From a virus, in the IMG/VR virus record IMGVR_UViG_3300047560_001548, positions 1-23,190 of that record: a stretch of DNA of 23,190 bases, one strand, 5' to 3'. Positions within the stretch are counted from its first letter, which is position 1; the number at the start of each line of letters is the position of its first letter. The translations under genes and the position numbers were made by a program. Under the pieces are notes generated by a model. The model saw nothing but the letters and a program-made list of their open reading frames with translations. It was not told the DNA's origin and ran no database searches. This document shows positions 1,965 through 23,190 of the stretch, piece after piece.

Positions 1965-3704
1965 ATGAGTTGGAAAAAATATTTCACCCCTGTACCTGTT
2001 AATGGAACCGTCAGCCCTGTTGGCAGCAATTTAACAAAAGCAGGTCCTGCACGATCAAACTACTCTAGCTATTTGCCAGATGTATATGCAGGTGCGCCTA
2101 ATCGTATTGAGCGTTATCAACAGTACGAAGTTATGGATAGTGATCCAGAAGTAAATGCAGCACTAGACATTCTAGCAGAATTTTGTACACAAAAATTAAA
2201 AGACGGAAAAACTCCATTTGCAGTGCAGTGGAGACACAAAGCTACTAACAGCGAAGTACGTATTCTAGCAGAATACTTACAACAATGGTGTAAACTACAA
2301 AAGTTTGACACACGTATTTTCCGTATTATGCGTAACGTATTCAAATACGGTGATGCATTCTTCATTCGCGATCCAGAAACACAAAAGTGGAGTTATGTTG
2401 ATCCGAGTAAAGTTACTAAAGTTATTGTTAACGAAAGTGAAGGCAAGAAGCCGGAGCAATATGTAGTTAAAGATTTAGCACCTAATTTTATGGATTTAGT
2501 TGCTACACAAATTACACCAAACATTAATCCACGCAATAATGCAGGTGGTATTAGTGGCGGAGCAGGGTACTTAGGCCAAGGCGGCGCACAGAAAACTGGT
2601 AATTTTTCAGCAGGTTCTAGCAACGGAACACGTTTTGGTGTCAGTGAAACAGAACATGCAATTGATGCTGAACACTTCATTCACTTGTCATTAAGTGAAG
2701 GTTTAGACAACATGTACCCATTTGGAAATAGTTTACTAGAAAATATTTTCAAAGTTTATAAACAAAAAGAATTGTTAGAAGACGCAATTCTAATTTATCG
2801 TATACAACGTGCTCCTGAGCGTCGTGTATTCCACATTGACGTAGGTAATATGCCAGGACACATGGCTATGGCGTTTGTTGAACGTGTTAAAAATGAAATA
2901 CACCAACGCAGAATCCCGTCACAAACTGGTGGCGGACAAAATGTTATTGACTCTGCATATAACCCATTAAGTATTAACGAAGATTACTTCTTCCCGCAAA
3001 CAGCAGAAGGCCGTGGATCAAAAGTAGAAACATTACCTGGTGGTACTAACTTAGGTGAAATCGACGACTTAAAATACTTTACAAACAAGCTATTCCGCGG
3101 TTTACGTATTCCAAGTAGTTACTTGCCAACTGGCGCAGATGACTCTCAAGCGTCATATAATGATGGTAGAGTTGGAACTGCTTACATTCAAGAACTACGT
3201 TTTAACAAATATTGCGAACGTTTACAAGCACTTGTAACAGCAGTATTTGACGAAGAATTTAAGATGTACATGCACTCACGTGGTGTAAACATTGACTCAA
3301 ATTTGTTTGAATTAAAGTTTAATCCACCTTTAAACTTTGCAAGTACACGTCAAAGCCAATTAGATGCAGAACGTATTAATACTTTTACAGGTATTGTACA
3401 AGTTCCATTTATGTCAAAACGTTTTGCTTTAAAACGTTTCCTAGGACTAACAGACGAAGAAGTAGCAGATAACGAACGTTTATGGGCAGAAGAAAACGGT
3501 TCTGGCCAACCTACATACACTGACGCAGCAGGCGAATTACGCGGTGCAGGATTAAGTGCAGCGGGCATTGAAGGTGATTTAAGTGCCGCAGGCGACTTAT
3601 CTGCACCAGATGGAATGGGTGATGACACTGATGCAGAATTAGGCGCACAAGCATCTAATCCAACAGCAGCACCTGCAACACCTGCAACACCGCCGGCTGC
3701 ATAA
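1965..3704 (+). CDS. 20: Portal vertex protein of head, gp20-like
   Basis: At 579 aa it is slightly longer than T4 gp20 (about 524 aa). Recognisable gp20 blocks include SDPEVNAALDILAEF (59-73), FKYGDAFFIRDPETQKW (126-142), YRIQRAPERRVFHIDVGNMP (278-297) and VETLPGGTNLGEIDDLKYF (354-372). The ring of portal subunits would initiate prohead assembly, conduct DNA and later join the neck. There is a Gly/Ser/Asn-rich insertion at about 190-222. The C-terminus (from about 530) is low-complexity and rich in Gly, Ala, Asp and Pro, ending TPATPPAA, which is likely disordered. The start is supported by an AAGGA site (1954-1958) overlapping the upstream stop. The TAA stop lies inside a late-promoter-like box. 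The family assignment is very secure; the role of the tail is unknown. Confidence 0.96.
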   Translation: MSWKKYFTPVPVNGTVSPVGSNLTKAGPARSNYSSYLPDVYAGAPNRIERYQQYEVMDSDPEVNAALDILAEFCTQKLKDGKTPFAVQWRHKATNSEVRILAEYLQQWCKLQKFDTRIFRIMRNVFKYGDAFFIRDPETQKWSYVDPSKVTKVIVNESEGKKPEQYVVKDLAPNFMDLVATQITPNINPRNNAGGISGGAGYLGQGGAQKTGNFSAGSSNGTRFGVSETEHAIDAEHFIHLSLSEGLDNMYPFGNSLLENIFKVYKQKELLEDAILIYRIQRAPERRVFHIDVGNMPGHMAMAFVERVKNEIHQRRIPSQTGGGQNVIDSAYNPLSINEDYFFPQTAEGRGSKVETLPGGTNLGEIDDLKYFTNKLFRGLRIPSSYLPTGADDSQASYNDGRVGTAYIQELRFNKYCERLQALVTAVFDEEFKMYMHSRGVNIDSNLFELKFNPPLNFASTRQSQLDAERINTFTGIVQVPFMSKRFALKRFLGLTDEEVADNERLWAEENGSGQPTYTDAAGELRGAGLSAAGIEGDLSAAGDLSAPDGMGDDTDAELGAQASNPTAAPATPATPPAA

Positions 3705-4071: not shown

Positions 4072-4944
4072 ATGACTGATCGTAAGCAATTCGAAGCCAT
4101 GCTAGAGGCATTGATCAATGAAGATCAAGAAACAGCAAAAGAAATTTTCCATCAAATCGTAGTAGGAAAATCACGCGACATCTACGAAGAATTATTAAAA
4201 GAAGACTTTGACCTTTCTGAATCAGAAAAGGAAGAAGAGGAAGAAGAGAACGTTGAAGAGTCCTCAGAAGAGGAAGAAGAAGGTTCTGAAAACCCATTCG
4301 GCGCTGAAGAAGGCGAAGAAGAAGAGGGTGAAGAGGAAGAAGAAGGCGACGAATTCGGCGGCGACGAAGAAGGTGCTGAAGATGAATTCGGCGGCGAAGA
4401 AGGTGAAGGCGAAGGTGATTTAGAAGATCGCGTTCTAGACCTAGAAGACGCTTTAGACGAACTAAAAGCAGAATTTGAAGAATTAATGTCACAAGAAGCT
4501 GAAGAAGGCAACCACGATATTGGTGCTATTGACGCAGCTGGTGACGGCGAAGCAGGTGACGATTTCGGCGGCGAAGCCGAAGTTGACGAACTACAACAAT
4601 TCATGGAATATGTTGACAAAGTAGCTTTACCAAAGCATGGCGATAACGGTGCAAACACTAAATCTCCAGTAGCTGGTAAAAATAACATGGGTGGCACAGC
4701 AGCTAACATCGCTAATGGCGGCACAGAAAAAGGTGCAGTTGAAGCTAACAAGGGCCAACTAAAGGGCAACGGCGTGTTCAAAGGTAACAAGCCACAATTG
4801 CAAGATGCAGGTAACATCAACGTTCCAGGCGGCAATGCTGGTAAAACAGCGTTCAAGAAGAAAGAACCTGGACACGGCGCAGAAAAGAAAGGCGCAGGTG
4901 AGTCTGCAGCTAATACAAAGAGTATCGTTGGGTCACGTAAGTAA
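4072..4944 (+). CDS. 67: Acidic prohead core protein, gp67-like N-terminus with long extension
   Basis: Residues 8-45 (EAMLEALINEDQETAKEIFH and onward) form a helical segment like the start of T4 gp67, the small acidic prohead-core protein. T4 gp67 is about 80 aa; this one is 290 aa. Residues 49-170 are extremely acidic, with long Glu runs and repeated DEFGG-type units (93-101, 104-111, 163-170), interrupted by a short predicted helix at 116-140. Residues 187-290 change sign: basic, rich in Gly, Asn and Lys, with NTKSPVAGKNNMGG (195-208) and a near-copy NTKS at 281-284. A role in the prohead core, cut by gp21 during maturation, follows from the family and from its place just before the protease. 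AGGAGA lies 7 bases upstream of the start. The extension could also be considered a gp68-like or separate core function. Confidence 0.78.
   Translation: MTDRKQFEAMLEALINEDQETAKEIFHQIVVGKSRDIYEELLKEDFDLSESEKEEEEEENVEESSEEEEEGSENPFGAEEGEEEEGEEEEEGDEFGGDEEGAEDEFGGEEGEGEGDLEDRVLDLEDALDELKAEFEELMSQEAEEGNHDIGAIDAAGDGEAGDDFGGEAEVDELQQFMEYVDKVALPKHGDNGANTKSPVAGKNNMGGTAANIANGGTEKGAVEANKGQLKGNGVFKGNKPQLQDAGNINVPGGNAGKTAFKKKEPGHGAEKKGAGESAANTKSIVGSRK
4348..4581 (+). repeat. Repeated DEFGG-encoding units in the acidic domain
   Basis: Near-identical units encoding Asp-(Glu/Asp)-Phe-Gly-Gly-acidic occur at 4348-4374, 4381-4404 and 4558-4581. The first two are almost tandem and share GAATTCGGCGGCGA. The flanking sequence (about 4222-4420) is nearly all GAA/GAG/GGC codons, giving a strongly purine-rich coding strand. 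Confidence 0.75.
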
Positions 4945-6712: not shown

Positions 6713-7873
6713 ATGTCAGAACTACTAAACGGCCGTTGGGCAGAGACTAAAGAAGCTCTTTTAGAAGGCCTACAAGGCACTAAAAAATCTGTAATGGGTG
6801 TTACACTTGAAAATACTCGTAAGTATTTGATGGAGTCCCCAACAGCAGGTGCTACTTCTGCCGGCAACGTTGCAACATTAAACCGCGTGATTCTACCGGT
6901 TATCCGTCGTGTTATGCCAACCGTTATTGCTAACGAGTTAGTTGGTGTTCAACCGATGACTGGCCCAGTTGGCCAAATCCATACATTACGTGTACGTTAT
7001 GCAGATAGCGCCACTGGTGTAACAGCAGGTGAAGAGGCATTAAGCCCATTCAAAATTGCTGAAGCTTATTCAGGCAATGACAGTTCAACTGCTAAAGCTG
7101 CTTCAACAGCAACTTTAGAAGGTGCTGCTGGTAAGCGTATGTCAATTCAAATCTTGAAACAAACTGTCGAGGCTAAAACTCGTAAGTTAAGCGCACGTTG
7201 GACATTTGAGGCAGCTCAAGATGCTCAAGCGCAACAAGGTATTGACATTGAAGCAGAAGTAATGGCTGCTTTAGCACAAGAAATTACAGCTGAAATCGAC
7301 CAAGAGATCCTAGCTAGCCTAGCATCTTTAGCTGGTACAGCTACAGAAAACTTCGACCAAGCTGCTGTATCTGGTACAGCTACATTCGTTGGTGATGAAC
7401 ACGCTGCTTTAGCAGTTCAAATCAACCGTGTTGCTAACTTGATCGCTCAGCGTACACGTCGCGGTGCAGGTAACTGGGCAGTTGTAAGTCCATTTGCTTT
7501 AACAATTCTACAATCTGCAACTACAAGCGCATTTGCTCGTACAACAGAAGGTACTTTCGAAGCTCCAACAAACACTAAGTTCGTTGGTACATTGAACAAC
7601 GCAATGAAGATTTATGTTAACACATATGCAACTGACTCTACTGACGTATTGATCGGTTACAAAGGTGCTAGCGAATCTGACGCAGCAGCGTTCTACTGCC
7701 CATACATTCCATTGATGAGCAGCGGTGTTGTTTTAGATCCATCAACATTTGAACCAGTCGTATCATTCATGACACGTTATGGTTATGTTGAGTTGTCTAA
7801 CACAGCTTCTTCTCTAGGTAACGCAGCTGACTACCTAGGTAAAGTAAGCCTATCAAACGTTTCTTTCAAGTAA
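6713..7873 (+). CDS. 23: Major capsid protein, gp23-like
   Basis: This 386-aa protein has the gp23 signature block VILPVIRRVMPTVIANELVG (59-78) followed by VQPMTGPVGQIHTLRVRYAD (79-98), which matches the equivalent T4 gp23 region closely. It should adopt the HK97-type capsid fold and form the hexamers of the head. T4 gp23 is 521 aa before processing, so this copy is compact. The helical N-terminus (1-41) is a likely propeptide: L-M-E at 39-41 and L-L-E at 16-18 fit the gp21 cleavage rule, and cutting after Glu41 would leave about 345 residues. Start is set by AAGGAG (6700-6705), which overlaps the gp22 stop. A strong terminator follows. No gp24-type vertex paralogue is seen in this window. 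Confidence 0.97.
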   Translation: MSELLNGRWAETKEALLEGLQGTKKSVMGVTLENTRKYLMESPTAGATSAGNVATLNRVILPVIRRVMPTVIANELVGVQPMTGPVGQIHTLRVRYADSATGVTAGEEALSPFKIAEAYSGNDSSTAKAASTATLEGAAGKRMSIQILKQTVEAKTRKLSARWTFEAAQDAQAQQGIDIEAEVMAALAQEITAEIDQEILASLASLAGTATENFDQAAVSGTATFVGDEHAALAVQINRVANLIAQRTRRGAGNWAVVSPFALTILQSATTSAFARTTEGTFEAPTNTKFVGTLNNAMKIYVNTYATDSTDVLIGYKGASESDAAAFYCPYIPLMSSGVVLDPSTFEPVVSFMTRYGYVELSNTASSLGNAADYLGKVSLSNVSFK

Positions 7874-10412: not shown

Positions 10413-11150
10413 ATGAGATTCTTAAAAACGTTAACTTTAAATCGTAGAGCAATTTATGACCCTCGTGTTGCAGTAGACACTAACAACACGTTTACAGTTG
10501 CTACTACTACAGACATGGTGCTACCAAAGAGTAGTTCATCATTATCTTCTGTCCAGACAGAAGGTATGCTTCGTTATAATACAAGCACACACGAAGTTGA
10601 AGTATATTCAGGCAATCCACAAACATGGAGAAGTTTACGTTATAAAGAAGCAGGTAAAATTGTTTTACAAAACTTAGGTAACATAGACGGCTATAGTTAT
10701 TTTTACGGCCCACTTAACGCAAGTTACGATCCAACAAACATTGCAAATAACAACGATAACTTTGATGGACAAAACATTCTTGTATTAATTGAAAACGTAT
10801 TTCAAATATTCAACACAAACTATGTAATTACACAAAACCCTTCAACTGGTATAGCTACAAGTGCCCAAGCAAATGCAGGATCAACTACAATTTCATTTGC
10901 TACTACTGCTGCTATCCCTACAGGTTCTGTAATAACAGGAAGTCCTTACTTGCAATCTAACACTGTAGCAACTGTAACAAGTGGTACAACAGTTTCTTTA
11001 GACAAAACTATTTCCGGTGGTAATATCCCTAACGGAACAGTATTAACATTTACGGCACCGACTGGATATTATTTAAATTTCACATCAGACCCTAACTATA
11101 TAGGCATGACTGGTAAACCTATTACAGTGTTACATGGGTTTGACAAGTAA
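10413..11150 (+). CDS. Virion structural protein with RYNT fibre motif (245 aa)
   Basis: Residues 51-75 carry GMLRYNTSTHEVEVYSG and then TWRSL. This matches the 'G-RYNT----E-Y-G--W' element that also occurs in the 1056-aa and 1515-aa proteins downstream, usually marking fibre tips or domain ends. The segment 80-143 (FYGPLNASYDPTN, ENVFQIFNTNYVITQNP) and the end KPITVLHGFDK resemble structural proteins of aquatic T4-like phages. Residues 144-214 look like an inserted Thr/Ser-rich beta domain, because the flanks read as one unit without it. It begins 1 base after the previous stop, with no strong ribosome site, which implies translational coupling. It is probably a tail or baseplate component; the exact role is unknown. 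Confidence 0.7.
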   Translation: MRFLKTLTLNRRAIYDPRVAVDTNNTFTVATTTDMVLPKSSSSLSSVQTEGMLRYNTSTHEVEVYSGNPQTWRSLRYKEAGKIVLQNLGNIDGYSYFYGPLNASYDPTNIANNNDNFDGQNILVLIENVFQIFNTNYVITQNPSTGIATSAQANAGSTTISFATTAAIPTGSVITGSPYLQSNTVATVTSGTTVSLDKTISGGNIPNGTVLTFTAPTGYYLNFTSDPNYIGMTGKPITVLHGFDK

Positions 11151-11163
11151 TTAAGGAACCGCC

Positions 11164-14100
11164 ATGGGCGCAGAATTAGGTAGAATAAGCGGCCCGTTAC
11201 TAGCAAATAATTTGCTACGTCGTGGCGTAGACTTAACATTTCGAAACTTTGACAGCGATCCTGACATCCTTTACTTGGATGTTATTAACGGTCGCATTGG
11301 TATCAATACTAGTACCCCTGCCCGCGATTTAACAGTTGCTGGTACAACTAACACAATTGATTTAATAGTTGACACACAGTCGACTATTGGCGATTTAACA
11401 TTCCTTACTAATCGCATACAAAATGCAATCGGTTCAATAAATGTTGTACCGGACCAATCTTCAAACCCTACTGTTGTTATTAACGAGTTACAATCTGATA
11501 ATTTAAAATTTTCAAATCGTACAATTACAACGTTAACAACAAATGATGATATAAATTTTGCATCTAATGGTACCGGCCGTGTTGTTTTCAATACTGATAA
11601 AGTTAATGTAAACGGGAACTTACACGCAACTGGTGATATTACGTGGGATGGTAACATTACCATTGGTAATAACGACCTTGATTCGGTATCGTTTAATTCT
11701 GATTTCACTAGCGATTTAGTTCCTAGTCAAAATAACAATTATGATATTGGTACTAGCTTAAAACAATGGGACACGTTGTATGCTGGTACTGTTGTAGCAG
11801 ATTTTACAAATTTAAATAATTTAACAGTTAACAACATTAATATGTTGTTTACACCTGGCAATACATTTTATGTTACTACAAACGGGTCTGACACTAACAG
11901 TGGTGAATATACATCAAACGCATTTAGAACAATTAAGTACGCTTTAAGTCAAGCAATTAAAGGCGATACTATTGTTATTTTTCCAGGTAACTATGTTGAA
12001 GAATTTCCATTAACAGTTCCAACTGGTGTAACGCTAACTGGATCAAGTTTGCGTAATGTAACAATATCTCCAACACCGTCGACTATCGACAAAGACGGCT
12101 TTTTATTCAACGGCGATGCTACTGTAGAGAATATTTTAGTTACTGGATTTAAGTATAATTCAACTAACGATACAGGCTATGCATTTAGATTTGCGCCAAA
12201 CATGAAGACGCTATCTAGAAGCCCTTACATTAGAAACGTTTCAGTTAAAACAGAAGCTCCTAATGCAGGTTATGGTGCGTTAATTGACGGTAGCTCTGTA
12301 GACCCAGACACAATTGAACCAGCAATGTTGTTCTATTCAACAACAATGTTAATTCCGGGTGCAAATGGTATTACTGTTACTAACGGCGCTCGAGTAGAGT
12401 GGTTAAACTCTTTTACATATTTTGCTTACCGAGGAATGTATCTAACTCGAGGTACACTAGGTGTTGCTGGATTAGGTGTTAAATTTGGCGCAGAAGTTCG
12501 ATCAATTAACTCTGCAAACGTATACGGTACATACGGCGCCGTTGCCGACGGCTTAGATACATTAGCATATCTAGTTGGACATAACTTTGGATATATTGGT
12601 ACAGAGTCTGATTCAACAAACGACACTACATTATCTTTACAAGCTAACGAAATTGTTCAAATTAACGGCGGTGTTATCTATTTTGATAGCATAGACCATA
12701 AAGGTGACTATCGTGTAGGTGAAATATTCTATGTTAATCAACAAACTGGGCAAGTTAGTTTTGATGCACAATCTATTAACTTTACTGCAACAGGTAATAT
12801 TACACTAGATGGCCCGACTGGCCAAATTATTTTAGATGCATCTAAAGTACAAGTTAGTAATCTTAAAATACACGATAATAATATTGATAGTTTAATTGGT
12901 CCTGTTAACTTCTTAGCACAATCTGGTACCACTACGCTGGACAGTGATGTGTATGTTACCGGAAACACCTATGTAACAGGTGATACTGTTGTTAAGGGAA
13001 ATGTATTCCTTGGTGATACACCGTTAGATTTAATTACAATTACTCCTAATTTAACACAAGATATTATCCCGGGTGCTAATAACACTTACAATTTAGGTAC
13101 TAAAACCCCAACTCCTAAAGTTTGGAATACAGCATACTACACTACGTTAAACGTTGATGGTATTACACAAATAACAAATAATACCATTTCAACGTTAGTT
13201 TCTAATAATGATTTAAGATTCCTTGCAGCGGGTACTGGTATTGTTCATGTAACAGGAACAAATATTCAAGTAGACCAAAATGCTATTTTTGGCGGTACTT
13301 TAACTGTTAACGGAGTAACAACTTTACAAGATACTACCTCTGTTGGATTAATAAACTTAACAGGTAACATTAGTCAAACAGGTGATACATATATTACCGG
13401 ACGTTTTGATAACAACAATATTCTTCTTACAGGAACACATTCTTATCTGCAAGTTCCGAATATTAAAATTCAAGACAATAACATTTCTGTAACTGCTACA
13501 GATAGTAATATTGAATTTTTTGGAAATGGAACTGGTGGTGTTGTAATTGAAAACAGATTAAAAATTGTTGATAACGTATTAAGTAACGTCTGGAGTGGCG
13601 CATCTAATAATACACAAAAGAGCATTATTTTTGCGCCTAATGGAACTGGTAACACTGTTATTAATTCATCAACGTTCTTAAAAGCACCAGTAGGCAGCGA
13701 AGCAACTAAAGTACTTTCAGCACCGGGCGAAGTTAGATATAATAATGCAATTTCTGCATATGAAGGATATTTAAGTACTGGTACAGAAAGTTTTGTAAAC
13801 GTTTATAGTACCGATAAAAAGACATACGTTACTCCAGAATTAACAATTGGTAACAACGATAATATTCTAAGATTTACAATCAATAATGTTGTTAAAGGAA
13901 CTATCGATTCTACAAAAGTTTCTTCTGCTGTTTTACAAGTAGGCAACTATGTGATGTCAGGAAATACTATTAATAACCCTGTAACAAACAGTGATAGTAT
14001 TTTTCAAGGTAACGGTTCTGGTTTTGTAAATGCAAACGGTATCTTAGTTAACTCGGGCGATATTACTAATCAATTAAACACACCAATTACCCTTGTAAGT

Positions 14101-14334
14101 ACCGGTACTGGATACTTTAAATTCGGCGGGACTTCTGCTATTGTATTCCCCCATGGTGACTCTAGTGAACGTAGACTTACTCCCGAACTTGGCGAATCGC
14201 GTTATAACACAGAATTAAACTATATGGAAGTGTATAACGGAACACAGTGGATCCCAGCAGTTGGTACTTCTGGTGCTGCATCACTAACTGATGTTATCGA
14301 CATCATGGACGAATTTGCCCTCATCTTTGGCTAA
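11164..14334 (+). CDS. Large tail-fibre/spike protein with right-handed beta-helix (1056 aa)
   Basis: The N-terminus (1-65) has GRISGPLLANNLLRRGVDLT and NGRIGINTSTP, shared with the 1515-aa neighbour and probably the virion-anchoring part. Residues 184-206 carry the fibre motif NNYDIGTSLKQWDTLY, repeated in altered form further on (NNTYNLGT). From about 233 to 480 it reads as a pectate-lyase-like parallel beta-helix: FYVTTNGSDTNSG, AFRTIKYAL, GDTIVIFPGNYVEEFPLTVP, SPYIRNVSVKT, FGAEVRSINSANVYGTYGAV. Six copies of a 24-residue 'N-I------D-L---GTG-V' unit are spread from 119 to near the end. Two RYN(T/N) elements lie near the C-terminus, which ends DEFALIFG. No catalytic residues can be assigned. 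It likely binds, and possibly degrades, surface glycans. AAGGA (11153-11157) sets the start. Confidence 0.85.
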   Translation: MGAELGRISGPLLANNLLRRGVDLTFRNFDSDPDILYLDVINGRIGINTSTPARDLTVAGTTNTIDLIVDTQSTIGDLTFLTNRIQNAIGSINVVPDQSSNPTVVINELQSDNLKFSNRTITTLTTNDDINFASNGTGRVVFNTDKVNVNGNLHATGDITWDGNITIGNNDLDSVSFNSDFTSDLVPSQNNNYDIGTSLKQWDTLYAGTVVADFTNLNNLTVNNINMLFTPGNTFYVTTNGSDTNSGEYTSNAFRTIKYALSQAIKGDTIVIFPGNYVEEFPLTVPTGVTLTGSSLRNVTISPTPSTIDKDGFLFNGDATVENILVTGFKYNSTNDTGYAFRFAPNMKTLSRSPYIRNVSVKTEAPNAGYGALIDGSSVDPDTIEPAMLFYSTTMLIPGANGITVTNGARVEWLNSFTYFAYRGMYLTRGTLGVAGLGVKFGAEVRSINSANVYGTYGAVADGLDTLAYLVGHNFGYIGTESDSTNDTTLSLQANEIVQINGGVIYFDSIDHKGDYRVGEIFYVNQQTGQVSFDAQSINFTATGNITLDGPTGQIILDASKVQVSNLKIHDNNIDSLIGPVNFLAQSGTTTLDSDVYVTGNTYVTGDTVVKGNVFLGDTPLDLITITPNLTQDIIPGANNTYNLGTKTPTPKVWNTAYYTTLNVDGITQITNNTISTLVSNNDLRFLAAGTGIVHVTGTNIQVDQNAIFGGTLTVNGVTTLQDTTSVGLINLTGNISQTGDTYITGRFDNNNILLTGTHSYLQVPNIKIQDNNISVTATDSNIEFFGNGTGGVVIENRLKIVDNVLSNVWSGASNNTQKSIIFAPNGTGNTVINSSTFLKAPVGSEATKVLSAPGEVRYNNAISAYEGYLSTGTESFVNVYSTDKKTYVTPELTIGNNDNILRFTINNVVKGTIDSTKVSSAVLQVGNYVMSGNTINNPVTNSDSIFQGNGSGFVNANGILVNSGDITNQLNTPITLVSTGTGYFKFGGTSAIVFPHGDSSERRLTPELGESRYNTELNYMEVYNGTQWIPAVGTSGAASLTDVIDIMDEFALIFG

Positions 14335-14346
14335 AAGCCCAAAATA

Positions 14347-14354
14347 GCTAAATA
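14347..14354 (+). promoter_or_regulatory. Late promoter-like box (GCTAAATA)
   Basis: GCTAAATA lies 13 bases after the stop of the 1056-aa gene. It resembles the CTAAATA late box of some T4-like cyanophages. Start would be near 14360, giving a leader of about 120 bases for the 1515-aa gene. Confidence 0.5.
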
Positions 14355-14359
14355 CTGTT

Positions 14360-14482
14360 ACTGCGGGATTTAGACCATATTTCCCCGATACTCAACTGTG
14401 GTAAACCAGCAAAGAGCCGTAAAAGCGGCTGCGGAGAAATCCAAAATAGGTTAACCGTGAAACACGGGGTAGAAGGAGAGCT
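14360..14482 (+). promoter_or_regulatory. Structured 5' leader of the 1515-aa fibre gene
   Basis: The 148-base gap has no gene. It holds a promoter-like box and then a leader with two tidy hairpins: AGCCGT-AAAA-GCGGCT (14415-14430, last pair G-T) and CCGTG-AAA-CACGG (14455-14467). GGATTT (14366-14371) can pair with AAATCC (14437-14442) to enclose the first hairpin. AAGGAG (14473-14478) follows, 4 bases before the ATG. TGCGGAGAAATCCAA (14430-14444) resembles 7970-7982 in the other long leader. No known RNA family is recognised. Confidence 0.45.
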
Positions 14483-17400
14483 ATGGCCGTTGGTCGAATT
14501 ACGGGTCCGCTCTTAAAGGCAAATCTCACACGACAGGGTGTAGATCTAGCTTTTGAGACGAACTTACTTTACATAGATGTTAATAATGGCCGTATTGGTA
14601 TCAACACTGCCACACCTTCTACGGACCTTCAAGTAAATGGTACAACACGTACTACTAATTTAGAAGTTACTAACCAAGCGGATATTGCTAGTTTTACAAT
14701 TAGTGGAAACACGATTGCTAGCAGTAACACAGTTATTAATCTTCAACCAAGCGGTTCTAACCCAGTCGTTTATCAAGCAAAATTATTAGTTAATAATAAT
14801 TTAGAAATAACTACAAATCAGATTAGTACTACAGATACCGACGCTGATTTAAACATTACAACAACCGGTACTGGCCAAGTAAATGTTAACAGCAATATGC
14901 TTGTTAACGGTGATTTACACGCAACTGGAAATATTACTGCTGATGGAAACATCACAATTGGTGATAGCCCAACAGATTCAGTAACATTCAATGCAGATAT
15001 TGCAAGTAATTTAACTCCAGATGCAAATGTAACTTACGATTTAGGTACTCCGTCTAAAAACTGGAAAACAGTATACACACAATCAGTACAAGCCGATTCA
15101 ATTACTTCAAACAGTATTTTAGTTGGCGGAATTGATTTAGCATTAACACCAGGAAAAACTTATTATGTTGCTGTAAACGGAAATGACAGCAATGCCGGAG
15201 ATCACGAACACGCACCGGTTGCAACTATTAAGCAAGCATTAAATCTTGCAACTGTTGGTGATACTGTTTTTGTATTCCCAGGCGTTTACGAAGAAATTCT
15301 TCCTTTAGAAATTCCAACAGGCGTAACAGTACGTGGTGCTAGTTTACGTTCGGTTCTAGTTAAGCCAACGGCTGCAACTAGATTCTTAGATATGTTCCAT
15401 ATGAATGGTGAAGCTACATTAGAAGACTTTACCTTAACTGGATTCTACCACGATCCTGCAGGAACATATGTAGAATTCCCAGGCGACACAAACGGAACCG
15501 GTCACTGTGTTCGTTTTAGCTTTGGTTGTTTAACAACTACCCGAAGTCCATACATTCGTAACATTTCTGTTCTTACAAGAGGCTCTCCAAGCGTTCTTTC
15601 TATAAACAGCATTAAGACAGAAGTTATTAGTAGCTTAAACAGAATTAAAAGTTTAATTCCAAATATTGTACAAAACATTGCAGTAACTGGAACAAGTGGA
15701 AATACGCAAGTACAAAATACTAGTTTACCAGCATCTGATGCAACAACAGCAACTGCACTACAAGGATTAATTGATACTGTAGTTTATGTAATTAATAACG
15801 GAACATTACAAGCAAATGCTCCTGCAATTACTGCTAACGGAACCGCAGTAACATCAGGAATGCTATACAAAGCAGCACAGATCCTTGAAGCAAACAGAGC
15901 TTGGATTGTACAAGAATCTTATTCATACCCAACATACACTTATTCACCAACTACATTTGACGAAACAAAAACTAAACGTGACATGGGATTAGTGTTAGAT
16001 GCATTAATCTATGACATTTTAAGAGGCGGCAACGAACATAGCTTCTACGCAGGCTATGGTTTTTGGGTTCATCCAGCAAACGATCCGTACGGATATGACC
16101 GTGGTGATGCAGGACACGGTGCATTAATCGACGGTGAAGTATTAGATCCAGCATGTTACAATCGTGCTATGTTGTTCCACTCAGTTACATTTATTACACC
16201 AGCAGCAGAAACACTTATTGCTAAAAACGGTGTGCGTGTAGAGTGGTTAAACTCGTTTACTTACTTTGCTGGAAAAGGTGCTTACTTATCATCCGGTCCA
16301 AATGGCTTTGCAGGCCAAGGTAAAACTAAGTTACGAATTGATAATCGCACAGGTACATGGGCAACCGGTAACACTGTAACTTATTATGATACAGATGGTA
16401 CATCTGTACTAGCATCTGGTACAATTGATTCTATTGACGGGAATTACATTTATCTAACTGGTAAATGTTTAGGTTTTGAAACAATTACAGATCGTGCTGG
16501 TAAAACAGTATACGCTCAAGGTAACGCCAAATTAAGTACATCTCAAAAGAAATTTGGTCCAACAAGTTTAGCATTAGACGGTGTTGGCGACTACATAACA
16601 TGTGCTACACAATCTGACTTTGCTTTTGGAACAGGGGCATTTTGTTTAGAAGCATGGATCTACAATACAAACCAACCTGCTGCTAATCAAGTTATTTTTG
16701 ATTTACGTACTGCAAATCCGCAAGTTGTTCCAACTTTTTACATTAATGCAACAACTAACACATTAAGATTAGCGGTTAATGGTTCAGCAGTTATTGACAG
16801 CGTATCAACAATTCCGTTAAACACTTGGACACACATAGCACTAGCTAAAAGTGGTTCGAGTACCAAGATGTTCATCAACGGCACACAAGTTGGAACAACG
16901 TATGCAGATACTAACAACTATATTCAAGGTGCTTTAACTATTGGTGCAAGATTTGACGGTACAACTCCGTTCTTTGGTTACATTGATGACGTGAGAATTA
17001 GTAAAGGTGTTGCGCGATACACAACTACATTCACTCCACCGACAAGTCAACTGTCCGGCGATTTAAACACTGTGTTGTTATTGAACTTAAATGGCAATAA
17101 CAACTCTACAACTATTTTAGATAACGGTATTACATTCCAAGATTTAAGATCTAGTGCCGGGGGCACTGCACAATTAATTAACTTTGCAGACTATTCAGAG
17201 TTTGGTGCAGAAGTTCGTTCTATTGGTTCTGCTTGCGTGTACGGCGATTATGGTATTTACGGTGATGGAGTTGGTGTAACTGGTTATTTTGTATCACATA
17301 ACGTTGCGTATGTTGGTGCTGGTAAGTTAACAACTAATGACCCTAATGATAGAATTGATGCAAATGAGTTTGTTGAATTAAACGGCGCCCACATTTATCA

Positions 17401-19030
17401 TACAAGTGTTGATAATGAAGGTAACTTTAGTGTAGGCGATAATTTTAACGTTAACCAAAAAACTGGTGAAGTTACATTTAATAATCAAAGTTTAAGTATT
17501 ACTAGTTTAACTGGTGTAACATTTACTGACGGTACTAACACTACTACAATTACATCTACTGATATTACAACCGGTAATATTAGAATCCATGATAACAACA
17601 TTGATAGTTTAACTGGTGATGTTAATATTACTGCTGCAAGTGGTGCTATTAATTTACAAAACAATACATATGTTACAGGTACATTGAATGTAACCGGTGA
17701 TGTTAATATTGGCGGTAACATTCAAATTGGTGATCAAACATCTGATACTATTAACTTTGTTGGTAGTATTGATAGTAATTTAATCCCGTCCGCAACAGCA
17801 ACTTACAATTTAGGTTCTTCGTCATATCGCTGGAATACGTTATATCTAAGTCGTTCTGAAATTGATAACCTTGTTATTGATAGTAATACTATACAAACAA
17901 CAAACGGAAACGATGACTTAACCTTAATTGCTAACGGATCCGGTCGTGTTTACATACCAAATAACAATTTGGTAGTTGACCAAAACGTTACAGTAACTAC
18001 AGACTTAACTGTTACTACTGGTGCCACTTACTTAAAGAACGTTGGTGTTACAGGAACTATTACCCAAACCGGTGATATTCAACAAACTGGTAATTTTGTT
18101 ACAAGTGGAAACACTCAAGTAACAGGTAATATTGTAGGTTCAGGTTATTTACAATTACCTCAAATTACAATTACAGGTAATCAAGTATATACAACTGCTA
18201 CAAATACCGACTTAAACCTTGTTGCAAATGGTTCCGGTAATGTTGTAGCTGAAGGAATTAAGTTTAGTGATAACACTATTCAAAGTGTTAATACAAATGC
18301 AGATATTACATTAGTACCACAAGGTACTGGCGGTGTGATAGTAAATAGCAACCAAAGTATTCAAATACCTGTTGGTACAACTGCGCAACGCCCAGGTGTA
18401 GGTACAGCTAGCAACGGTATGATTCGTTATAATACTGACTTAACAAGATATGAAGGTTATAACAACGGCTATTGGGTAAAACTTGGCGGCCTGCAAGATA
18501 TTGACGGAAATACTAAGATTATTGCTGAAGCATATCCTGGTGCAAACGATAACACAATTTATTTTTATGCAGATGGAAACCTAACTGCAACTATTGACAG
18601 TACAAAATTATTTGCACAGCGTTTCCAAACAGTTAACTTAGATATAACAGGCAACACAATCACACCAATTACTAGCGGTAGTGATTTAAATTTAACAACA
18701 ACCGGCACTGGCGGTGTGCGTTTAGGTAACTTAAAGGTATTCAACAACACTATTACTAACGTAGTTAGTGGTGCAATAACACAGTTCTTAGAAACTGGAG
18801 CCGGATATGTAAAAATTGCAGGAACTAACGGGGTAGTTATCCCGTCTGGTGACACACAGTTCCAACGCCCGCTAGTTCCTGAAACTGGAATGATGCGTTT
18901 TAACACCGACCTACAACTAGTTGAGGTATATACTGGTACAGGTTGGGCAAGCGTTGCAGGTGCATCAGGTGGTGTTACAACTGCTGAAGCAACTGACATT
19001 GGTATTGCATCTGCATTAATATTTGGATAA
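14483..19030 (+). CDS. Giant tail-fibre protein: beta-helix with helical and LamG-like insertions (1515 aa)
   Basis: This is a paralogue of the preceding gene. It has the same N-terminus (GRITGPLL, GVDLAF, NNGRIGINTATP), fibre motif (VTYDLGTPSKNWKTVY, 184-199), beta-helix (from 223: YYVAVNGNDSNAGD; GDTVFVFPGVYEEILPLEIP) and C-terminal SALIFG. Two blocks are absent from the paralogue. Residues about 366-545 form a helical domain with LYKAAQILEANRAWIVQE, DETKTKRDMGLVLDALIYDI and LRGGN, familiar from large aquatic-phage structural proteins. Residues about 612-907 contain a concanavalin/LamG-type fold at about 683-870 (KFGPTSLALDGVGDYITC, CLEAWIY, TWTHIALAKSG, MFINGTQVG, GYIDDVRISKGVARY). After the helix come a second TYNLGS motif and five more GTG-type units, then two RYNT/RFNT elements. 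A glycan-binding distal fibre is the likely role. AAGGAG sits 4 bases upstream. Confidence 0.87.
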   Translation: MAVGRITGPLLKANLTRQGVDLAFETNLLYIDVNNGRIGINTATPSTDLQVNGTTRTTNLEVTNQADIASFTISGNTIASSNTVINLQPSGSNPVVYQAKLLVNNNLEITTNQISTTDTDADLNITTTGTGQVNVNSNMLVNGDLHATGNITADGNITIGDSPTDSVTFNADIASNLTPDANVTYDLGTPSKNWKTVYTQSVQADSITSNSILVGGIDLALTPGKTYYVAVNGNDSNAGDHEHAPVATIKQALNLATVGDTVFVFPGVYEEILPLEIPTGVTVRGASLRSVLVKPTAATRFLDMFHMNGEATLEDFTLTGFYHDPAGTYVEFPGDTNGTGHCVRFSFGCLTTTRSPYIRNISVLTRGSPSVLSINSIKTEVISSLNRIKSLIPNIVQNIAVTGTSGNTQVQNTSLPASDATTATALQGLIDTVVYVINNGTLQANAPAITANGTAVTSGMLYKAAQILEANRAWIVQESYSYPTYTYSPTTFDETKTKRDMGLVLDALIYDILRGGNEHSFYAGYGFWVHPANDPYGYDRGDAGHGALIDGEVLDPACYNRAMLFHSVTFITPAAETLIAKNGVRVEWLNSFTYFAGKGAYLSSGPNGFAGQGKTKLRIDNRTGTWATGNTVTYYDTDGTSVLASGTIDSIDGNYIYLTGKCLGFETITDRAGKTVYAQGNAKLSTSQKKFGPTSLALDGVGDYITCATQSDFAFGTGAFCLEAWIYNTNQPAANQVIFDLRTANPQVVPTFYINATTNTLRLAVNGSAVIDSVSTIPLNTWTHIALAKSGSSTKMFINGTQVGTTYADTNNYIQGALTIGARFDGTTPFFGYIDDVRISKGVARYTTTFTPPTSQLSGDLNTVLLLNLNGNNNSTTILDNGITFQDLRSSAGGTAQLINFADYSEFGAEVRSIGSACVYGDYGIYGDGVGVTGYFVSHNVAYVGAGKLTTNDPNDRIDANEFVELNGAHIYHTSVDNEGNFSVGDNFNVNQKTGEVTFNNQSLSITSLTGVTFTDGTNTTTITSTDITTGNIRIHDNNIDSLTGDVNITAASGAINLQNNTYVTGTLNVTGDVNIGGNIQIGDQTSDTINFVGSIDSNLIPSATATYNLGSSSYRWNTLYLSRSEIDNLVIDSNTIQTTNGNDDLTLIANGSGRVYIPNNNLVVDQNVTVTTDLTVTTGATYLKNVGVTGTITQTGDIQQTGNFVTSGNTQVTGNIVGSGYLQLPQITITGNQVYTTATNTDLNLVANGSGNVVAEGIKFSDNTIQSVNTNADITLVPQGTGGVIVNSNQSIQIPVGTTAQRPGVGTASNGMIRYNTDLTRYEGYNNGYWVKLGGLQDIDGNTKIIAEAYPGANDNTIYFYADGNLTATIDSTKLFAQRFQTVNLDITGNTITPITSGSDLNLTTTGTGGVRLGNLKVFNNTITNVVSGAITQFLETGAGYVKIAGTNGVVIPSGDTQFQRPLVPETGMMRFNTDLQLVEVYTGTGWASVAGASGGVTTAEATDIGIASALIFG

Positions 19031-19035
19031 GAATT

Positions 19036-19365
19036 ATGACAACGTATTTTAGAACAAAGGTAGTTAACGATATTGGAACAACTCCGGTTGATGTATTAGC
19101 AACGTCAACAGGTAACAGATATACTTTAATTGGTTGCAACCTTGCAAACACAATAGACACCGATGTTATTGTTGATATACAAATAACAGATGGTAGTAGC
19201 AACACAGGGTATTATATTAGACAACTAGTCATATCTCCGTATACTAGTGCAAAAGTTGTTACTAATGGCGAAAAAATAATTTTAGCAGAAAACTCGACTA
19301 TGACTATTACTAGTGATACAGATAATAGTGTTGACATGGTAGCAAGTTACGCAGAAATTCTATAA
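19036..19365 (+). CDS. Small beta-sandwich virion protein (109 aa)
   Basis: This compact beta-rich protein has the order KVVNDIGTTPVDVLATS (9-25), RYTLIGCNLANTIDTDVIVD, GYYIRQLVISPYTSAKVVT, GEKIILAENSTMTITS and VDMVASYAEIL. I recognise this pattern from small proteins placed beside large fibre genes in aquatic phages, usually annotated as hypothetical or structural. It is likely related to the 115-aa protein at 10064. Strands ending in 'VD-(V/M)-(A/M)SY-EI' suggest a jelly-roll-like module that could cap or trimerise fibres; this is inference. It starts 5 bases after the 1515-aa gene, with only a weak GGATAAG ribosome site that spans the upstream stop, so translation is probably coupled. Confidence 0.75.
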   Translation: MTTYFRTKVVNDIGTTPVDVLATSTGNRYTLIGCNLANTIDTDVIVDIQITDGSSNTGYYIRQLVISPYTSAKVVTNGEKIILAENSTMTITSDTDNSVDMVASYAEIL

Positions 19366-19377
19366 TAGGATACTAAC

Positions 19378-19737
19378 ATGGCAAATAATTATCAATTTGG
19401 CAGATCAAAAGATGAATTACTAGGTAACGCACCCCGTTACATGTACGCACTTCGTAGAACAGACGACGGCGAGTTATATTTTGCAAGAATAGATCAACTT
19501 AGTAGAGTTGACAGCATTCAAATTAATAAAGAAGGCACAAGTGACGGAAACTATCAAGATTTTGAACAAGGTGTAGATATGTTTGAAGGAAGAGATGCCG
19601 ACCATAATTTAGTATTTGAAAATTTAAACTACGAACAGATGCGTTGGGATGACCGTAATTTATACTATTACATCGATGATGCAGGAAATTTAGTAGTCAG
19701 AACTGATACAAAATACCAGTATCCATCTGGTATATAA
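19378..19737 (+). CDS. Conserved T4-like phage structural protein (119 aa)
   Basis: This hydrophilic protein is rich in Asp, Tyr and Asn. Conserved-looking blocks are YQFGRSKDELLGNAPRYMYA (5-24), LRRTDDGELYFARIDQLSR, QDFEQGVDMFEGRDADHNLV and LNYEQMRWDDRNLYYYIDD. I recognise similar proteins adjacent to fibre genes in T4-like phages of aquatic bacteria, without an assigned function. Many acidic-aromatic turns and the absence of membrane or signal features fit a virion connector or baseplate accessory. AGGA (19367-19370) precedes the start by 7 bases. Its TAA stop lies within a perfect TATAAATA box for the next gene. Confidence 0.75.
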   Translation: MANNYQFGRSKDELLGNAPRYMYALRRTDDGELYFARIDQLSRVDSIQINKEGTSDGNYQDFEQGVDMFEGRDADHNLVFENLNYEQMRWDDRNLYYYIDDAGNLVVRTDTKYQYPSGI

Positions 19738-19740
19738 ATA
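19733..19740 (+). promoter_or_regulatory. T4-type late promoter, perfect TATAAATA box
   Basis: An exact match to the T4 late consensus lies 30 bases before the last gene's ATG and contains the stop codon of the 119-aa gene (19735-19737). Start would be near 19746, giving a leader of about 24 bases with GAGG (19760-19763). Confidence 0.7.
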
Positions 19741-19769
19741 ATGAATATTCATAATAACTGAGGTAAGAA

Positions 19770-22700
19770 ATGGCAGAATTTAAAATACCACGAATTAGAT
19801 TTACTTGGCAGGGCGATTGGGTTACTGGAACAGCATATACAAAAGACGATATAGTTCGCTATCGCGGTAAATCATATGTGTGTTTAGTTGGACACAATGC
19901 TTCTGCTGATTTCAATACAGATTTAAACTATATTGACATTTCAACGACTCCAGACTCACCGGCTCCGAAATGGGGATTGTGGTTTGACGGTTACGAGTGG
20001 AGAAGCAACTGGCAAATTAACACCTTATATAACTTAGGTGACATTGTTAGATACAACAGTTATGTTTATATTTGTAATACTTCTCATACCTCTGCAGAGA
20101 CTCCGACATTAGGTTTAGAAGCAGATCAGTCTAATTGGACTGTTTATGCTGCAACTGACGACTGGACTAAAAACTGGACTGTTAACACACGTTACAGAAA
20201 AAACGATATTGTTCGATATAGTGGAACAATGTATCGTTGTACAATCGGTCATACTTCGTCAGCAACTTTAGTGTTAGGTTTAGAAAATGACATTGCAAAC
20301 TGGACTCCAATCACCTACGGTACTGACTGGAAAACTGATTGGACTGTGTCTACTCGTTACAGATTAGGTGACATTGTTCGCTACGGTGGCATTGTTTATA
20401 AGTGTGTAACAGGTCACACATCTGCTGCAACAAACACTTTAGGTTTAGAAAATGATATTGCAAAGTGGAGCATTTTACACAACGGTATTGATTATAAAAC
20501 AAACTGGGCTCCTAGCACAAAATATAAAATCAATGACATCGTAAAATACGGTGCAGACTTGTGGATTTGTGTAGGATATCATACATCTAACGCAATTTTT
20601 GATATAGTAAACTTTAGTATGTATGTTCCAGGTTTGGAATATGCAAATGCTTGGAACATTACGACTTCATACATTCACGGAGATGTTGTAACATACGGCG
20701 GCTATCAATATTATAGTAAAACAACAAATAACGTTGGAAACGTTCCATCGCTTGACTCAGTAAACTGGGATTTATTAGTTCAAAATTATAACATTAGAGG
20801 CGAGTGGGATCCATTATTATCATACAGAGTCGGTGATGTTGTAAGAAGATCTGGTTATTTGTATGTTGCAATTGCTGATAACACTGGACAAGAAACTACT
20901 TTAACTGCATATTGGTTGTTGGTTAATCCAGGAATCCAATGGAAGGGACCGTGGGCTGCTGGGAATAACTACGTAATTGGTGATGTTGTTGCATACTATT
21001 CAACAAGTTATATTTGTTTAGTAAAGCACTCATCAACTACTGATAATGTTCCAGGAACTACTCCGACTCCATTAGATATTACTAGCGCAACGCATGACGG
21101 TATTAATGTTGTTATTAACTTTTCATCACAACCAACAATTCTATACCCAGCAGGAACAACCATTATTATTAGTGGAGTTACACCAAGCGCATATAACGGA
21201 ACATATGTTGTTTCTCAATCGTCAGCATCTAGTGTAACAATTACAAATGATACTGGATTAGATTTTGTGTCAGGTGGAACAATTGTAGCAGCAGACTCGT
21301 GGAAATATTATGTTCGCGGTGATCAGTTTGAAACATTGCAATATCAAGGCGATATCCAAACATATGATCAAGGTAAACATGCGCCGGTGGCACTAGGTGT
21401 TAATGGTAGTTTATTAAAAACTAAAGGCAACTTACTACCAGTTCCGTCATGGGGCAACTTTGGTACTGTTGATAAAGTTTATTATGTTGCCGGGGGCACT
21501 GGTGTTGATGCACCAGGTTACGGTTTAACATTAAATGCACCTTGGAAAACCATTAACTATGCATGTAAAAATGTAACTGGGCCAGCAACAATTTTTGTTA
21601 AAACAGGTACATACTCTGAATCGTTACCAATTAGCTTACCAGCAGGTGTTGCTATTGTTGGTGACGAGTTGCGCGGTACTGTAGTTCAACCAGCTACAAC
21701 AATTTCTACAATTGCAACAGCAACTGATGCAGCATCTGGATATATTAGTGTAAATTCTGTAACTAACATTGCAGATAAAACGCCTATTAGATTTACAAAT
21801 GCATCAGCAACAACAATCGCAACTTCAACCAACGCATCTGGTAGCGGTATTACTGTTATTAGTTCTGCAGGAATGGTAGTAGGTATGCCGATTACATTTA
21901 CAGGTGTCGGCTTTGGCGGAATTGTATCTGGAACAACTTATACTATTTTAACTATTCCTAATATTTCTACAATTACTGTTACATCAAACGGTGTAACGCC
22001 AATTACATTAACTACTGACACAGGTACTATGACTGTTAACGCAGGTAATTTTGGTAGCTTATTATCTGACCAAATTTACTGGGTAATCGGATCTACAATT
22101 AACCCAAGCGTATCATTATCTGGTTATATTTCGGGTACAACATTAACACAAACTGCACCGGCAGGAACACCGTTTGCTATTGGTATGACTTTATCTGGAA
22201 CTAATGTATTAGCAAATACTAAAGTTACAGCAATTAACACGGCTACAATAACTAGTGCTACTATCAATGGCTCAACATTGAACATTGTATCAGCAGGAAC
22301 TGGAACTGTTACAGTAGGTATGTATGTAACTGGTACAGGTGTATCAGCAGGTACATATATTATTGCCGGCAGCGGAAGTACATGGACTGTTAACCAAAAT
22401 CAAACCGTAACTCAAACATCGATGACTTGCTCAAGTTATACAGTGAGTCAAAGTCAGAGTGTTGCAACAACAACACTTACAGGTACATTAACTGGATTTA
22501 AAGTTTCAACTTCTCGATTCAGTTCGACTCCAGTAACATTAACATCAACATCTAATCAAAATATTACTATATACGGCGGTGATGTTTTAAATGATATGTT
22601 CTGGGTAAGAAATGCTTGCGGTATTCGCAACATGACTTTACGTGGTTTAAATGGGGTTTTAGGTGATGCTAACTCATACGGCACACGTAGACCTTTAGCA

Positions 22701-23190
22701 GGTTCTTATGTTTCACTAGATCCGGGAACAGGAACTAACGATACTAGTGTATGGATTACAACTAAATCACCTTATGTTCAAAACGTTACTACATTTGGTT
22801 TTGGAGCAACCGGATTAAAAGTTGATGGTACATTACACGGTGGCGGTAACCACTCTATTGTTGCTAACGACTTTACACAAATTATTAGCGATGGTATCGG
22901 CGCATGGGTAACTGGCCCAGGTGCGTTATCTGAACTTGTATCGGTATTCGCATACTATGGTCATTGCGGATACTTAGCAGAAAACGGCGGCAAGATCCGT
23001 GCTACAAACGGAAATACTTCATACGGTACGTATGGATGTGTTGCAGAAGGTTTTGATTCTACCGAAGTTCCAATTTCTGTTAACGTTACAAACAGAAACC
23101 AACAAGCTCAGGTAGCTACTGCGTTTACCGGCGAAGCAGCTAATAAGATTTATCGATTAGAATATAGCAACGCAGGACAAAATTATACTA
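19770..23190 (+). CDS. Giant adhesin: eight CBM-like repeats plus beta-helix (3' partial)
   Basis: The frame is open from the ATG at 19770 to the window edge, so at least 1140 residues are present and the C-terminus is missing. Residues about 11-425 contain eight repeats of about 50 aa with the pattern W----W----Y--GDIVRY-G--Y-C---HTS, like the carbohydrate-binding modules (CBM5/12 type) of chitinases and phage fibres. The eighth is interrupted by a small beta domain (434-505). Residues about 520-570 (YQGDIQTYDQGKHAPVALGV) link to a beta-helix: VYYVAGGTGVDAPGYGL, PWKTINYACK, ATIFVKTGTYSESLPI, GDELRGTVVQP. Residues about 642-932 are a Thr/Ser-rich insertion. The helix then resumes (NDMFWVRNACGIRNMTLRGL, WITTKSPYVQNVTTFG, ENGGKIRATNGNTSYGTYG). 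A glycan-binding fibre or baseplate adhesin is likely. GAGG lies 6 bases before the ATG. Confidence 0.88.
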   Translation, partial: MAEFKIPRIRFTWQGDWVTGTAYTKDDIVRYRGKSYVCLVGHNASADFNTDLNYIDISTTPDSPAPKWGLWFDGYEWRSNWQINTLYNLGDIVRYNSYVYICNTSHTSAETPTLGLEADQSNWTVYAATDDWTKNWTVNTRYRKNDIVRYSGTMYRCTIGHTSSATLVLGLENDIANWTPITYGTDWKTDWTVSTRYRLGDIVRYGGIVYKCVTGHTSAATNTLGLENDIAKWSILHNGIDYKTNWAPSTKYKINDIVKYGADLWICVGYHTSNAIFDIVNFSMYVPGLEYANAWNITTSYIHGDVVTYGGYQYYSKTTNNVGNVPSLDSVNWDLLVQNYNIRGEWDPLLSYRVGDVVRRSGYLYVAIADNTGQETTLTAYWLLVNPGIQWKGPWAAGNNYVIGDVVAYYSTSYICLVKHSSTTDNVPGTTPTPLDITSATHDGINVVINFSSQPTILYPAGTTIIISGVTPSAYNGTYVVSQSSASSVTITNDTGLDFVSGGTIVAADSWKYYVRGDQFETLQYQGDIQTYDQGKHAPVALGVNGSLLKTKGNLLPVPSWGNFGTVDKVYYVAGGTGVDAPGYGLTLNAPWKTINYACKNVTGPATIFVKTGTYSESLPISLPAGVAIVGDELRGTVVQPATTISTIATATDAASGYISVNSVTNIADKTPIRFTNASATTIATSTNASGSGITVISSAGMVVGMPITFTGVGFGGIVSGTTYTILTIPNISTITVTSNGVTPITLTTDTGTMTVNAGNFGSLLSDQIYWVIGSTINPSVSLSGYISGTTLTQTAPAGTPFAIGMTLSGTNVLANTKVTAINTATITSATINGSTLNIVSAGTGTVTVGMYVTGTGVSAGTYIIAGSGSTWTVNQNQTVTQTSMTCSSYTVSQSQSVATTTLTGTLTGFKVSTSRFSSTPVTLTSTSNQNITIYGGDVLNDMFWVRNACGIRNMTLRGLNGVLGDANSYGTRRPLAGSYVSLDPGTGTNDTSVWITTKSPYVQNVTTFGFGATGLKVDGTLHGGGNHSIVANDFTQIISDGIGAWVTGPGALSELVSVFAYYGHCGYLAENGGKIRATNGNTSYGTYGCVAEGFDSTEVPISVNVTNRNQQAQVATAFTGEAANKIYRLEYSNAGQNYT
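19800..21045 (+). repeat. Eight tandem carbohydrate-binding-like repeats (protein level)
   Basis: Repeat cores lie at about residues 23-43, 87-107, 142-162, 196-216, 251-271, 301-321, 351-371 and 401-421 of the last protein. Each has Y-x(3)-D-(I/V)-V, an aromatic about 10 residues later and, in most copies, Cys and His-(Thr/Ser)-Ser. Copies 3 and 4 are closest, sharing LGLENDIA. Confidence 0.8.

Follow-up and report, generated by a model that had tools for sequence, protein, structure and literature searches.

A phage that encodes several giant beta-helix proteins side by side raises the question of whether these are separate adhesins that can be exchanged one by one, or whether some of them work together. 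The stretch of DNA analysed here (the window) is a complete IMG/VR virus record of 23,190 bases, itself a genome fragment, and its source is an uncultured giant (jumbo) T4-like phage. Its gp20 is 48-50% identical to those of the jumbo T4-like phages Phosso, XbC2, CBB and BF, and the DNA of its gp23, the sole DNA match of the window among cultured phages, is 73% identical to that of the Erwinia/Serratia group. The named genes begin with gp20 (1965-3704), followed by a gene for an acidic 290-aa protein with long Glu/Asp runs (4072-4944; cultured relatives have a virion structural protein at this position), gp21, a gp22-type scaffold, gp23 (6713-7873) and small structural genes. Downstream of these lie genes A and B, two short genes (19036 and 19378) and gene C; A, B and C are all on the plus strand and are the three large open reading frames of the preliminary description, at the positions given there (1056, 1515 and 1140 aa, with the window ending before the frame of the last one closes). 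Relatives in IMG/VR repeat this gene order and have an additional C-like gene downstream of C. In L001-L010 this further giant gene is made of CBM repeats, helix pieces and blocks resembling residues 367-529 of B, which brings the array there to at least four giant proteins. Directly upstream of A, a 245-aa gene (10413-11150) carries a motif of the type 'GxxRYNT...EVYxGxxW' that recurs within and close to the C-termini of both A and B, and judging by this common motif its product may be part of the A/B appendage.

Gene A (11164..14334) and gene B (14483..19030), separated by 148 bases, encode fibre-like proteins of 1056 and 1515 aa that, on sequence comparison, are full-length tandem paralogues and true duplicates. 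Their N-termini are 46% identical (E 2e-85), the middle piece of the helix 42% (E 5e-21) and the remainder up to the C-terminus 38% (E 7e-103), so the common N- and C-termini described earlier hold, the alignments reaching both ends. Protein A opens with an N-terminal scaffold (aa 1-213, 11164..11802; conserved GxIxGxLL start) that takes in the first copy of a shaft module (aa 145-213, 11596-11802), followed by a right-handed beta-helix predicted from the AlphaFold model and structure matches (aa 231-535, 11854..12768), the second shaft module (aa 594-668, 12943..13167) and the C-terminal part of the shaft with the end of the protein (aa 669-1056, 13168..14331), of which the last residues are ALIFG. 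Protein B has the corresponding N-terminal scaffold (aa 1-213, 14483..15121), first shaft module (aa 137-208, 14891-15106), second shaft module (aa 1060-1131, 17660..17875) and C-terminal shaft and end (aa 1132-1515, 17876..19027; again ALIFG). Its putative beta-helix comes in three parts (aa 225-366, 15155..15580; aa 530-613, 16070..16321; aa 906-1010, 17198..17512), between which lie inserted block 1 (aa 367-529, 15581..16069) and inserted block 2 (aa 614-905, 16322..17197), the latter composed of a leader (614-690) and a LamG/ConA-like domain. Both blocks sit in helix turns and have no counterpart in A, in agreement with the earlier proposal that the pair diversified through block insertion.

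The preliminary description had counted C as a third paralogue of the same fold. As to the fold, the models agree with it. For A, pLDDT is about 90 across most of residues 231-535 and low outside the helix, and this segment superposes on 5olq with Z 21.4 (257 residues, rmsd 3.1), on the cyanophage Pam1 tailspike with Z 21.3 and on the Sf6 tailspike with Z 19.9; the model of the C helix reaches Z 14.7 (189-213 residues, rmsd 3.5-3.6). The top structural matches of both models are polysaccharide-acting enzymes and phage spikes, and both segments are predicted to have the right-handed beta-helix of the pectate-lyase-like / tailspike superfamily; for B the same fold is suggested by homology to A. 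Among proteins of known structure we found no convincing sequence relative of the C helix.

As to paralogy, homology over most of the length joins A with B and does not extend to C. Gene C (19770..23189, partial, 1140 aa within the window, about 1100-2800 aa in relatives) starts with CBM5/12 repeats (19770..21059; PF02839, seven stretches, E 5.4e-50, 167.6 bits against a curated cut-off of 26.2, placing them within that family), and its beta-helix (aa 569-641, 21474..21692, and aa 938-1106, 22581..23087) is split by an inserted block that is partly of low confidence in the model (aa 642-937, 21693..22580). Similarity of C to A and to B is confined to helix segments (E 4e-7, 3e-5 and 2e-8); its N-terminus differs from theirs and so does its end, as far as the window reaches. 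Within the helix, the profile built on the helices of A and B scores C at 31.7 bits, whereas 500 shuffles reach 7.4 at most, and thus the match is not driven by composition; a profile-profile alignment (hhalign) gives 99.5% probability and E 2.3e-23 over about 220 columns, covering the entire helix with the order kept. The landmarks noted earlier do occur in the same order in A (FYVTTNGSDTN, GDTIVIFPGNYVEE, SPYIRNV, YGTYG), in B (YYVAVNGNDSN, GDTVFVFPGVYEE, SPYIRNI, YGDYG) and in C (YYVAGGTGVD, ATIFVKTGTYSE, SPYVQNV, YGTYG), except that the first landmark of C is without the NG-D-N pattern. On these alignments C is a domain-sharing protein and not a third full paralogue, and we regard it as a fibre in its own right, CBM-fronted and encoded in the same gene block, that has the helix in common with A and B.

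What then is the common scaffold of A and B? It had been taken to be the helix, and the comparison with relatives reverses this, since the N- and C-terminal shaft is the conserved part and the helix is dispensable. The helix is a cassette between two copies of the shaft module, which is about 60 residues long, an arrangement that is new here. The relative L008 has a helix-less pair (A of 604 aa, B of 596 aa), and alignment of its two proteins with helix-bearing ones leaves a gap at 158-603 in A and at 151-1067 in B. Two copies of the shaft module were recognised in most helix-bearing proteins (44/52 for A, 39/53 for B) and a single copy in most helix-less ones (31/38 and 36/38, respectively). 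In L008 B the single module is similar to the first copy as far as about residue 145 and to the second from there on; for A the evidence of a chimera is weaker. Such a chimeric module fits a join within the repeat, but an insertion that duplicated its flank would look alike; because loss and flank-duplicating insertion give the same chimera, we took the direction of the change from the tree.

The state of the helix turned out to be a property of the pair. Among 193 distinct A/B pairs in IMG/VR, 95 have the helix in both proteins, 98 in neither, and none is mixed; the same holds for the first set of 91 pairs (53 both, 38 neither, 0 mixed), which three more scans enlarged to the 193, all pairs being classed with the helix profile. 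Scores on this profile are bimodal, either 0 or above 40 and mostly above 400 bits, and absence was scored only in complete open reading frames or in partial ones longer than 400 aa, which rules out cut contigs and weak detection as the source of the pattern. On a tree of the capsid genes gp22 and gp23 we counted nine changes of state, eight of them supported and all eight concordant between A and B (8/8, sign test p 0.008), and on the A_N and B_N trees six changes each, three supported and 3/3 concordant on each; all these trees come from rapid searches with a simple model, and their supports are somewhat optimistic. Every independent contrast on the trees was concordant between the two genes.

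We considered whether A and B evolve in concert within a phage and ruled this out, since in the helix tree the A-helices and the B-helices form separate clades, split cleanly by gene, so that helices have not been copied from A to B. In a combined tree of the scaffolds, A forms one clade and B another, and rooting on the A/B duplication makes the helix ancestral, from which it follows that A and B lost the helix jointly. Twenty phages form a supported helix-less clade with identical membership in A and in B. In the literature searched we found no description of joint loss in paired fibres.

We hypothesise an obligate partnership of A and B within a single host-attachment appendage, the two working as one device, a reading to which we give a probability of roughly 0.55. 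In it, A and B would be virion proteins of the fibre or tailspike type in which the conserved N- and C-terminal shaft holds the helix; the partnership could take the form of a hetero-oligomer, or of side-by-side fibres whose heads must match, and the helix would be kept or lost for the pair as a whole. Contact with the host surface is suggested by the fold, by the LamG and CBM domains and by the tail-fibre names of C's relatives, and the helix, LamG and CBM domains may bind surface polysaccharide. More tentatively, and with less confidence than in the partnership as such, we propose an obligate hetero-assembly of these two paralogous beta-helix fibre proteins, whose subunits could retain or shed the helix cassette only jointly. 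Such an assembly would be a paired modular switch, alternating between a spike-like long head and a short fibre.

The most serious competitor to partnership is simple linkage, in which the two adjacent genes are swapped as a block and the few real losses hit both by chance or in one long event. With A and B 148 bases apart and inherited as a linked pair, the concordance could be hitch-hiking; their trees are highly congruent, and the nine switches on the capsid tree exceed the six (three supported) on the A/B trees, pointing to block replacement for many of them. Within each helix state the A and B scaffold trees agree almost fully, sharing 16 supported splits in one state and 21 in the other, with one contradicted in each. 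To set A and B against their neighbours, splits with support 90 were compared across both helix states. The B tree contradicts 9/43 splits of A, 13/42 of gene 9058, 19/45 of gp22, 26/42 of gp23, 20/35 of gene 19378 and 22/38 of C, and because splits conflict less for A than for the neighbours, A and B appear largely as one travelling unit with a border just past B. Distance correlations are less informative than split conflicts (0.59 for A-B and likewise 0.59 for B-9058). Such a unit fits a constraint between partners, although adjacency alone could explain part of it. Against linkage only, gene 19378 lies just 348 bases downstream of B and still conflicts with it in 20/35 splits, compared with 9/43 for A (being shorter, it gives noisier trees); paired events are needed to explain the common helix-less clade and the loss of the helix from equivalent sites of A and B; and 193 pairs have yielded no mismatch. 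We thus think linkage on its own unlikely, while granting it a real share of the probability. The preliminary view, in which the set consists of independent adhesins offering alternative receptor binding, draws on the variety of domains (LamG in B, CBM in C) and on strain-level exchange of blocks, but alternatives predict that helices are gained and lost independently, and in A and B this is never seen (0/193 pairs mixed). For these two genes, as opposed to A/B versus C, which the argument leaves aside, we consider that view improbable and unsupported.

Two further readings place A and B elsewhere in the virion. That they are head fibres or capsid decorations would suit the order gp20-gp21-gp22-gp23-...-A-B, which puts them shortly after gp23, and the likeness of the A helix to phi29 gp12 (Z 19.5), one among many likenesses; the same block, on the other hand, has CBM-fronted C genes of a type called tail fibre, and in cultured XbC2, BF and CBB a gene annotated as tail (fibre) protein stands a few genes after gp23, making this reading about as improbable as that of independent adhesins. 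That they are baseplate wedge components we find a shade less probable still. The best PHROG matches of A and B are named 'baseplate wedge subunit' and one shaft match falls within an HTVC008M protein annotated as baseplate wedge initiator, but the highest-scoring stretches of the PHROG matches are the helix of A (221-438) and the helix plus inserts of B (532-1086), the termini are not part of this likeness, and the terminal scaffolds have no full-length relative in phage records, where the N-terminal scaffold of B is matched over at most its C-terminal two thirds, mainly the shaft module.

While the helix is all-or-none, what its turns carry varies between strains, as had been suggested. The LamG/ConA-like domain of B (aa 699-841; PF13385, E 4.6e-21, 76 bits against a curated cut-off of 27.6, and thus a member) occurs in 59 of 81 complete helix-bearing B proteins (four with two matches) as compared with 3 of 86 A proteins. 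Outside the helix, LamG was seen in the C-terminal shaft of one A (L102:2976-6881) and in one helix-less A (L014:5987-7978). A single LamG difference separates L098 from L100, which are 91% identical, and the 163-residue block 367-529 is what separates the window from its near relative L002. This block, by its sequence probably alpha-helical, is missing from A and most relatives of B and present in five B proteins; a search for its origin among cultured phages gave no match. The B of the window tracks L002 at both ends (mostly 70-95%) and is nearer L001 from about residue 241 to 600, a tract that therefore looks recombinant. LamG or other domains in the turns of B's helix may accordingly be viewed as exchangeable decorations.

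Bacterial genome contigs were also considered as a guide to the host and set aside: the only matches lie in two MAGs, one assigned to Neomarinimicrobiota (contigs of 335 and 153 kb) and one to Rickettsiales, and are probably phage sequence that was misbinned. The 335-kb contig, which has the entire block with a helix-less A/B pair, probably stems from a jumbo phage binned in error, and another contig of this MAG has the same gene layout (L193, L194). In the contigs of the Rickettsiales MAG (L195-L197), at least three nearby proteins have the N-terminal start of B, which suggests that the fibre family with this start is wider than A and B.

The full A/B scaffold was not found in any cultured phage record, and the nearest known systems each resemble a part of the pair. 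Beta-helix tailspikes (Sf6, cyanophage Pam1, CBA120 TSP2) represent the fold class of A, with Z about 19-21 over 237-259 residues; unlike in these spikes, the helix of A and B is a removable middle cassette flanked by repeated shaft modules in a tandem pair of paralogues. Cyanophage proteins named as baseplate wedge initiator or subunit (PHROG 13163, 1469, 32294) strongly match the helix part of the pair and, in the case of B, also the inserts, while the terminal scaffolds are unmatched as a whole and the descriptions consulted mention no paired state. Tail-fibre-like proteins of cyanophages and pelagiphages (P-SSM2, S-CAM3, Mosig) match C in CBM repeats and helix, at best with about 35% identity and 59% coverage. 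CBB, XbC2 and BF have a single tail-fibre-type gene of about 540-560 aa after gp23, where the window has the A/B pair instead. In the branched tailspikes of RaK2 and CBA120, several beta-helix spikes per phage are joined via conserved N-terminal domains, the assembly domains of those proteins being D1/D2/XD; the parts of that account consulted describe no paired helix state (PMC10253068).

The all-or-none rule in 193 pairs points to constraints that a partner places on the exchange of host-contact domains, and the coupling predicts that A binds B. Receptor-binding proteins of phages are commonly regarded as independently swappable. A module boundary that is used in nature is now marked, which aids the reading of those large jumbo-phage fibre genes that lack annotation.
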